Positions 33,772 to 35,559 of a stretch of 64,000 nucleotides of DNA are shown here, piece by piece. Under the pieces are notes generated by a model. The model was not told where the DNA came from, ran no database searches, and saw only the letters and a list, made by a program, of their open reading frames with translations. Made by a program: the position numbers and the translations under genes. The DNA is from Chromobacterium paludis (lineage in GTDB: Bacteria; Pseudomonadota; Gammaproteobacteria; Burkholderiales; Chromobacteriaceae). The stretch spans positions 3,286,001 to 3,350,000 of the forward strand of contig NZ_CP043473.1 in the NCBI RefSeq assembly GCF_008275125.1, written 5' to 3'. The stretch's first letter is position 1. Every line of letters begins with the position of its first letter.

Positions 33772-35559
33772 TTAAACGATGGCCTGGGCGCTGACCTTCT
33801 CCGCGGTGGACAACTTGTTCAAGGCCGACAGATACGCCTTGGCGCTGGCCACGATGATGTCGGTGTCGGCGCCCTGGCCGTTGACGATGCGGCCGTCGCG
33901 CGCCAGGCGCACGGTCACCTCGCCTTGGGATTCCGTCCCCTTGGTGATGGCGTTGACCGAGTACAGCTCCAGCTCGGCGCCGCTGCCGGCCACGCTCTCA
34001 ATCGCCTTGAAGGCGGCGTCCACCGGGCCGGAGCCGCTGGATTCGGCATGGCGCTCCTCGCCATGCTCGACGAACACGATGCTGGCCTGCGGCGCTTCGC
34101 CGGTTTCGGTCATGATCTTCATCGACACGAACTTGAAGTTCTCTTGCTCGATGGCCACCATTTCGTCCGACACCAGCGCGTGCAGGTCCTCGTCGAAAAT
34201 TTCGCGCTTCTTGTCGGCCAGCTCCTTGAAGCGGGCGAAGGCGGCGTTCAGCGCCTCCTCGCTGTCCAGCACGATGCCAAGCTCCGCCAGCTTGGTCTTG
34301 AAGGCGTTGCGGCCGGACAGCTTGCCCAGGGTCAGACGGTTGGCGCTCCAGCCCACCGACTCCGCCGACATGATCTCGTAGGTTTCGCGGTGCTTGAGCA
34401 CGCCGTCCTGATGGATGCCGGACTCGTGGGCGAAGGCGTTGGCGCCGACGATGGCCTTGTTGGGCTGCACCGGGTAGCCGGTGATGGTGGACACCAGCTT
34501 GGACGCCGGCACGATCTGGGTGGCGTCGACGCGGCTGTCCACGCCGAACACGTCGCGGCGGGTCTTCACCGCCATCACGATCTCTTCCAAGCTGGCGTTG
34601 CCGGCGCGCTCGCCCAGGCCGTTGATGGTGCATTCCACCTGGCGCGCGCCGCCCAGCACCGCGGCCAGGCTGTTGGCCACCGCCATGCCCAGATCGTTGT
34701 GGCAGTGGGCGGACCAGATCACCTTGTCGCCGCCCGGGGTGCGGGCGATCAGCTCGCGGAAGAAGGCTTCGGTCAAGCGCGGCACCGCGTAGCCCACGGT
34801 GTCCGGCACGTTCAGCGTGGTGGCGCCGGCCTCGATCACCGCGCCGAAGATGCGGGCCAGGAAATCGATGTCGGAACGCAGCGCGTCCTCGGCGGAGAAT
34901 TCGACATCGTCGGTGTATTCGCGGGCGATCTTCACCGCCTTCACCGCCGCGTCCACCACCTCGTCCGGGCTCATGCGCAGCTTCTTCTCCATATGGATGG
35001 GGCTGGTGGCGATGAAGGTGTGGATGCGGCCGCGCGCGGCCGGCTTGATCGCCTCGCCGGCAGCGCGCACGTCGCGCTCGTTGGCGCGCGCCAGGCTGCA
35101 GACGGTGGAGTCCTTGATGGTTTCGGCGATGGCATGGATGGCGTCGAAATCGCCCGGGCTGGCGGCGGCGAAGCCGGCCTCGATGATGTCCACGCCCAGC
35201 CGCTCCAGCTGGCGCGCGATGCGGATCTTCTCTTCCTTGCTCATCGAGGCGCCCGGCGACTGCTCGCCGTCGCGCAAGGTGGTGTCGAATATATAGAGGC
35301 GGTCGCCCATGTCGATAGTTCTCCCTGCTCCCTGTGCCGGCTCGCCGACCAAATAGTCGTTGAAATCAAAGCGCCTGCCCTGTCCTGCGGCCAGCTGCGC
35401 CAAGCGGCTCAGCTGGGCCAGCGGCAGGCTGCCGCGTTCCCTCCATTTGTATATCGCTGCGCGGCTCACCGGCTCGTCGGGGAACAGACGGTTCAGTTCG
35501 TCGGCCAGCTGGCTCGGCCCGCCGAAGTCCGCGACCAGTCGTTCTATATCCACTTGCAT
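33772..35559 (-). CDS. leuA: 2-isopropylmalate synthase LeuA with N-terminal helix-turn-helix extension
   Basis: A 595-residue frame. Residues 84-595 are a normal LeuA (512 residues): [20 protein letters not shown] with metal ligand Asp, [16 protein letters not shown], and the C-terminal leucine-binding domain; it condenses acetyl-CoA with 2-ketoisovalerate. Residues 1-83 (from [20 protein letters not shown]) form a Cro/YdaS-like helix-turn-helix, with [15 protein letters not shown] as recognition segment. AGGAG lies 8 bases before the ATG at 35559, and AGGGAG about 9 bases before the internal ATG at 35310. Thus a fusion, plain LeuA, or both could be made. No stop separates the parts. Confidence 0.88.

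Follow-up and report, generated by a model that had tools for sequence, protein, structure and literature searches.

Isopropylmalate synthase with a fused helix-turn-helix domain as a probable regulator of its own gene in Chromobacterium paludis

Can an enzyme of leucine biosynthesis act as the transcription regulator of its own gene? The question is raised by a locus of Chromobacterium paludis, in which a helix-turn-helix (HTH) domain precedes the isopropylmalate synthase LeuA; it lies in a stretch of 64,000 nucleotides (contig NZ_CP043473.1, positions 3,286,001 to 3,350,000), here called the window. A first-pass annotation had proposed that the cell could make the fused protein, plain LeuA or both, and that the fused protein would be a direct feedback regulator. 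Bifunctional enzyme-repressors of this kind, such as PutA, BirA and NadR, are known as trigger enzymes, and their hallmark, an enzyme and a DNA-binding domain in one chain, is found here by sequence and predicted fold. Because the enzyme, in a large group of bacteria, carries its own DNA-binding domain, has matching sites in its promoter and retains a conserved second start, it probably regulates its own gene. We give a probability of roughly 85% to the reading, drawn from comparative sequence analysis, that HTH-LeuA is a normal isopropylmalate synthase and also a transcription regulator, most likely a repressor, of its own gene.

The gene occupies positions 33772 to 35559 of the minus strand as a single open frame, 595 codons long and closed by a stop, which confirms that the HTH domain is in frame with LeuA. 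Sequence and profile models likewise bear out the annotated division: the first 83 residues, which resolve into HTH domain and linker, are followed without an intervening stop by a complete LeuA (residues 84-595). The HTH domain comprises residues 1-70 (35350..35559, minus strand), as delimited by its family match and by AlphaFold2 helices, while the linker of residues 71-83 (35311..35349, minus strand) is predicted to be disordered from pLDDT and contains the internal ribosome site. The 2-isopropylmalate synthase with its stop extends over 33772..35310 (minus strand; TIGR00973 and PRK00915 models), and a short form, if the internal ATG is used as a start, would consist of this part alone. It is made up of a catalytic HMGL-like domain with intact motifs (34492..35298, minus strand; PF00682, 326 bits, and alignment), a post-catalytic domain (34207..34452, minus strand; PF22617) and the LeuA allosteric dimerisation domain (33811..34203, minus strand; PF08502, 132.7 bits), which we take from family knowledge to be leucine-binding. 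The protein exceeds the whole-protein cut-offs for LeuA (TIGR00973, 700.6 against 598.7; NF002087, 902.5 against 729), and the motifs that are presumably catalytic and metal-binding are intact. The genome holds a single match to the HTH family and one full LeuA, the sole other LeuA match being weak (26% identity), so that the cell's only LeuA of this kind bears the HTH domain. The closest match in the protein database, from Chromobacterium amazonense, reaches 99% across the HTH region. Directly upstream on the same strand, an apparent histidine kinase and response regulator pair was noted by eye at 35742..37983 (minus strand), and a terminator-like repeat lies near 35725..35700, after this pair and before HTH-leuA.

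The HTH domain of the window is a member of NCBIfam NF046037, named carph-isopro (70.0 bits against a cut-off of 38, covering positions 1-54 of the 54 in the model). The name seems to point to isopropylmalate synthase; the family listing records the domain only, and in the openly licensed literature we found neither a paper that uses the name nor one on the function of the domain. The Pfam gathering scores of P22_Cro (14.9 against 30.2) and YdaS_toxin (14.2 against 30) are not reached. AlphaFold2 models the isolated domain confidently (pLDDT 87.7), with helices at residues 5-11, 15-25, 33-42 and 47-59, and in the full-chain model linker residues 72-83 fall below a pLDDT of 50. The predicted fold appears to be of the Cro type: the Cro proteins of N15 and Xfaso 1, which resemble the window domain in fold, are among its nearest solved structures, at 22-25% identity and with weak Foldseek E-values. 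Both of these are free small phage repressors, unlike the enzyme-fused domain. A sequence search of the PDB with the HTH domain gave no significant relative (best E 0.39), and a search of IMG/VR, which bears on a possible phage origin of the domain, returned eight loci at 36-46% identity. The HTH domain is under stronger constraint than LeuA: among 78 pairs from 13 loci of the window's genus, pN/pS amounted to 0.100 in the HTH domain, 0.193 in LeuA and 0.552 in the linker, where pS itself is lowered (0.165).

A search for the domain in LeuA homologues, suggested along with the first-pass annotation, found the fusion to be near-universal in the window's family and in a sampled Neisseria-like family; an upstream domain that is frameshifted or not conserved, the outcome that would have spoken against the annotation, was looked for among these homologues and not found. 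In the window's family, 60 of 61 genomes have a match and 58 of the 61 carry the fusion in a single uninterrupted frame; the exceptions include a gene split across two contigs (G046) and a 61% complete genome without a match (G009). In one genome of this survey (G044, locus L206) HTH-leuA is broken at two places, yet an upstream operator is perfect; since the assembly is of low quality (80% complete, 7% contaminated), the break may be an assembly error. In the family of genome G187, which we call Neisseria-like from its protein names, 78 of 83 genomes have a LeuA match, and this match starts from residue 1-3 in 76 of the 78, one of the two exceptions being cut by a contig end (G472) and the other a genuine HTH-less leuA (G224). 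Fusions of the HTH domain to LeuA were read in seven families (f1, f5, f14, f22, f32, f44 and f51), and all 95 proteins retrieved with the HTH region carry LeuA domains, in a search that admitted only lengths close to that of the whole fusion. The meningococcal LeuA is annotated at 597 aa, HTH domain included.

The regions upstream of these genes contain candidate operators. Of 59 genes that carry the HTH domain (the paralogue L071 described below and 58 HTH-leuA; duplicates L001, L039-L041, L051, L055, L083 and L084-L099 omitted), 52 have the inverted repeat TTNGAC-N5-GTCYAA with at most one mismatch in the 250 nt upstream; after dinucleotide shuffling, no more than one of 59 had it in any of 20 sets. 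Within 400 nt, the best palindrome of these 59 loci has no mismatch in 24, one in 28 and two in 7; with 30 further loci added (L174-L203, among which L192 duplicates L033), the best site has no mismatch in 27, one in 41, two in 17 and three in 4 of the 89, the counted loci being related and the counts not independent events. In the window, the candidate operator O1, TTCTACAAAGTGTCTAA (35675..35691, minus strand; one mismatch), lies 73 bp upstream of the candidate operator O2, TTTGACGAGATGTCTTG (35602..35618, minus strand), which stands at a conserved position, has two mismatches to TTNGACN5GTCYAA and overlaps the -35 box of a predicted promoter, TTGACG-N17-TAGGCT (-35 TTGACG at 35612..35617 and -10 TAGGCT at 35589..35594, both minus strand). 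An extra half-site, TTGGACA, is found beside O1 (35658..35664, minus strand). From this promoter, transcription would begin immediately ahead of the long-form ATG, which would imply a short 5' UTR covering the upstream start. All 13 examined loci of the genus have a site with at most one mismatch at -132/-133, and TGTC-N15-17-GACA is present in 28 of 30 loci of the family. Many loci have a recognisable promoter with a -35 box overlapped by O2; the string TTGWCN-N15-19-TANNNT is present within 110 nt in 55 of the 89.

Two sites with at most two mismatches each are present in 41 of the 89 loci, the remaining 48 being without such a pair. Where two copies occur, O1 usually lies between about -130 and -142, and O2 around -57 to -60; several Neisseria-like genomes have O2 further upstream, around -72 to -79. 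The O1-O2 spacings (53 bp in one locus, 62 in four, 63 in five, 64 in four, 72 in nine, 73 in eight, 74 in three, 75 in one, 83 in five and 116 in one) are close to 5, 6, 7, 8 and 11 turns of 10.5 bp. None of 20000 sets was as phased in a random-spacing test that treats distinct spacings as independent, which does not hold; because lineages are not independent, the whole-turn spacing is suggestive only, pointing to possible binding on the same face of the helix by looping or contact. A scan of 20 whole genomes, which addresses uniqueness and not presence because 17 had been selected for a known exact leuA site, gave 19 sites for the exact pattern TTRGAC-N5-GTCYAA, against 12 for a reversed control pattern; with 17 of the 19 at leuA and two elsewhere, the exact operator is a near single-gene signal in these genomes. 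In the genome of the window, the motif with one mismatch is not enriched genome-wide (65/59 against 64/73 for the reversed-pattern control).

Genes without the HTH domain offer a natural comparison. No palindrome with at most one mismatch was found in 32 HTH-less leuA loci (400-500 nt searched; seven of the loci from families of the fused clade); among HTH-less leuA of the order, 0 of 26 loci had a site with at most one mismatch and two had one with two mismatches (400 nt), and in a further six loci the best palindrome had 3-4 mismatches. In genus g31 (family f22), LeuA is without the HTH domain in six of seven genomes, and none of these six, nor G224, has the operator (3-4 mismatches at best). 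In a tree of 52 LeuA sequences from which the HTH domain was left out, 27 fused genes and six HTH-less genes, these being six of the seven from g31 and G224, form one clade (100/96), and the presence or absence of the HTH domain requires four changes on the tree. Since the HTH-less g31 and G224 genes are nested in the fused clade, operator and HTH domain appear to have been lost together. Gain of the HTH domain at the base of the clade followed by losses would be the plain reading of the tree; the position of the sole fused g31 genome, surrounded by unfused ones, calls for repeated loss or for regain.

Control by a leader peptide (Leu_leader, Rfam RF00512) is a leucine-dependent control of leuA transcription, as is proposed here for HTH-LeuA. 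Short frames rich in leucine codons and containing LLL precede leuA in 17 of 31 HTH-less loci, and by our reading 13 of the 31 have LLLR leader frames, often GLLLRPAR or alike (L104, L105, L108-L112, L115, L116, L119, L121, L124 and L125); at least the leader frame of L103 looks like chance. HTH-bearing genes differ in this respect, with LLLR leader frames upstream of 0 of 89, and any LLL frame occurs in 14 of 89 of their loci, against 11 of 89 after shuffling the same upstream sequences. The LLLR-type frames suggest attenuation of HTH-less leuA. At three HTH-less g31 genes (L169, L171 and L172), LLLL leader frames are followed by a GC-rich terminator-like repeat. No Rfam model reached its gathering score in six HTH-less loci and the window locus; Leu_leader scored 26.7 bits in L171, where 50 would be required. 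These observations fit an exchange of leader-peptide control and HTH self-control between related genes, and suggest that leader-peptide control has been replaced by another kind of control.

A separate line of evidence comes from genome G260, which holds, besides an intact fused enzyme (L052), a second HTH-LeuA-like gene (L071:3210-4877) with a TTG start after GGGAGG. Its product (P0097) has relatives that are 90% (P0099) and 51% (P0101) identical and thus belongs to a lasting family; it is present in one of six genomes of its family and in four protein clusters besides (P0098-P0101), and a scan of genome contigs for the second lineage, P0101, returned one unrelated match at 29%. The HTH domain is kept (carph-isopro 56.4 bits in P0097, 48.4 bits in P0101), as is the allosteric domain (PF08502 106 and 89 bits). 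The TLRDGE motif of LeuA has become SLRPAH or SMRPMQ in P0097 and P0101; the first His of HCH is missing from the paralogue, as are NGLGERAGN, GIHQDG...YEI and the internal Met, and the protein gave no match to PF22617. With motifs altered or deleted, P0097 and P0101 stay below the LeuA cut-off of TIGR00973 (182.8 and 141.2 bits against 598.7), and the L071 paralogue resembles the six LeuA of its family more closely in its C-terminal part (52-56% identity) than over the first 344 residues (30-31%). A class II leuA (PRK03739, 894.8 bits) follows the gene after 54 nt on the same strand, and an operator-like site, ATGGACACTTTGTCCAA, is found upstream of the paralogue at -174. As the HTH and leucine-binding domains are kept without the catalytic motifs, whose loss suggests that catalysis is lost as well, the paralogue is best read as a leucine-responsive regulator.

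The intact fusion enzymes keep two starts, and both are preceded by good ribosome sites, as had been annotated: AGGAG (35567..35571, minus strand; the same stretch in 13 loci of the genus) 7 nt before the ATG at 35559, and AGGGAG (35321..35326, minus strand) 10 nt before the internal ATG at 35310. An ATG at the LeuA start is found in all 88 HTH-LeuA genes, and GGAG stands 5-16 nt before it in 79 of them, compared with 2.0% of 5495 control windows that precede other codons in the HTH and linker regions (a control that drew on 79 of the genes, the nine others being missed by its search expression). Several of the nine genes without an internal GGAG have weaker purine runs. The linker proteins differ and GGAG occurs in all three codon phases (34/42/3), which indicates that selection acts on the nucleotides; such a pattern would be expected if ribosomes use the internal site. 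From the constancy of the ATG and of GGAG in every phase, plain LeuA is probably also made, and the conserved internal Shine-Dalgarno sequence thereby supports the use of both starts. Exclusive production of the long form, with the internal ATG as a relic of the ancestral LeuA start, would agree with the start of HTH-less LeuA genes at the same place, outside as well as inside the fused clade, but we consider it unlikely, given that GGAG is kept so far above the control windows despite variable linkers and in three phases, and that the internal Met has disappeared from the paralogue that no longer has the catalytic motifs. The opposite case, in which plain LeuA is the sole product and the HTH domain a functionless translated leader, is scarcely credible: the solved chain 3rmj does begin near the internal Met (query residue 78 corresponds to chain residue 4), but the low pN/pS of the HTH domain (0.10), the predicted promoter just upstream of the long start and the occurrence of the fusion in seven families all argue against it.

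The direct feedback self-regulation put forward in the first-pass annotation is supported by the conserved promoter operators, by their absence in HTH-less relatives and by the HTH-LeuA paralogue without catalytic motifs. In such a mechanism, the LeuA dimer would present paired HTH domains to the palindromes, two occupied sites on the same helix face might loop or cooperate, and binding at O1 and O2 would block the promoter. Leucine, whose role as effector is suggested by PF08502 and family knowledge, could switch DNA affinity from the C-terminal allosteric domain, in which case one molecule would combine feedback inhibition of activity with feedback control of transcription. The short form from the internal start would be an enzyme without repression, and may also tune repression through mixed dimers. 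A single feature, the overlap of O2 with the -35 box, makes repression the most likely mode. Activation of the promoter at scarce leucine, instead of repression at plentiful leucine, is rather unlikely: the location of O1, at about -130 relative to the start codon, would also suit an activator, but the predicted -35 box is overlapped by O2 both in the window and in the other loci given by the promoter scan. Quite improbable is the proposal that the palindromes are bound by another regulator, for instance of the Lrp type, the fused HTH domain having another role or none. A gonococcal transcriptome paper, in its paragraph on leu1, infers leucine control of that gene by analogy and names Lrp as one that might regulate the anaerobic stimulon (PMC3032703). 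Against a separate regulator, operators and HTH domain are present or absent together, the exact site is nearly confined to leuA in the 20 genomes, unlike the sites of a global regulator, the HTH domain is more constrained than LeuA itself, and a similar site precedes the paralogue.

Self-regulation by HTH-LeuA may be one case of a broader arrangement. A related HTH domain precedes a class V aminotransferase in loci of the same order (L063-L068, L070, L079, L207-L226 and L231-L236); L067, for example, scores 64.3 bits with PF00266, 34.3 with YdaS (over the cut-off of 30) and 34.5 with carph-isopro (under 38). Among 34 such loci tried, 28 were readable (five being without the enzyme motif and one without the HTH motif), and an internal Met with a Shine-Dalgarno-like 4-mer is present in all 28; the palindrome TTGTCAAA-N5-TTTGACAA occurs with at most two mismatches in 250 nt in 25 of the 28, against 0 of 560 shuffled sequences. 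Three genomes of f5 carry an HTH domain fused to GalU, the UTP-glucose-1-phosphate uridylyltransferase (loci L082, L227, L228 and L229; in L082, TIGR01099 382 bits, P22_Cro 35.9 over 30.2, carph-isopro 24.9 under 38). These genes also have an internal Met, preceded by purine-rich sites, and TTGTTCA...TGAACA palindromes were seen by eye upstream of L228 and L229. An HTH domain of the carph-isopro type is also fused to RhuM-like proteins at two loci of the order, L073 and L074, each in a different genome. We hold it to be somewhat more probable than its contrary that the Cro-type HTH domain is a recruitable and skippable autoregulation module on unrelated enzymes, with a palindrome at its own promoter, and that in one lineage the enzyme half has decayed to leave a leucine-sensing regulator.

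Altogether, if these readings are correct, the regulator of leuA would be the enzyme itself. In the openly licensed literature we found no described regulator of leuA in Neisseriales, including the meningococcus, and no paper on a fused or self-regulating LeuA or on NMB1070. The domain fusion already has a catalogue entry and enzyme-repressors form an established class, of which HTH-LeuA would be a variant; greater novelty would lie in a skippable module shared by three enzymes. With PutA, BirA and NadR, none of which to our knowledge is a LeuA, it has in common that a DNA-binding domain on a metabolic enzyme would control a gene of the enzyme's own pathway according to the enzyme's ligand state; unlike them, it has a conserved internal start that would release the enzyme without the DNA-binding part, and its exact operator is nearly confined to one gene in the scanned genomes. 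A further parallel is BzdR, reported to be an HTH domain fused to a shikimate-kinase-like domain that has lost its enzyme activity, with the evolutionary path rebuilt from synthetic chimeras (PMC3602430). BzdR likewise combines an HTH domain with an enzyme-derived sensor, and the LeuA paralogue would repeat the step by which an enzyme becomes a regulator; it differs in that the fused enzyme with intact motifs and its derivative without them coexist in a single genome, G260. The path from enzyme, through enzyme with HTH domain, to pseudoenzyme regulator would thus be traceable in living genomes, whereas the work on BzdR is reported to have relied on synthetic chimeras.
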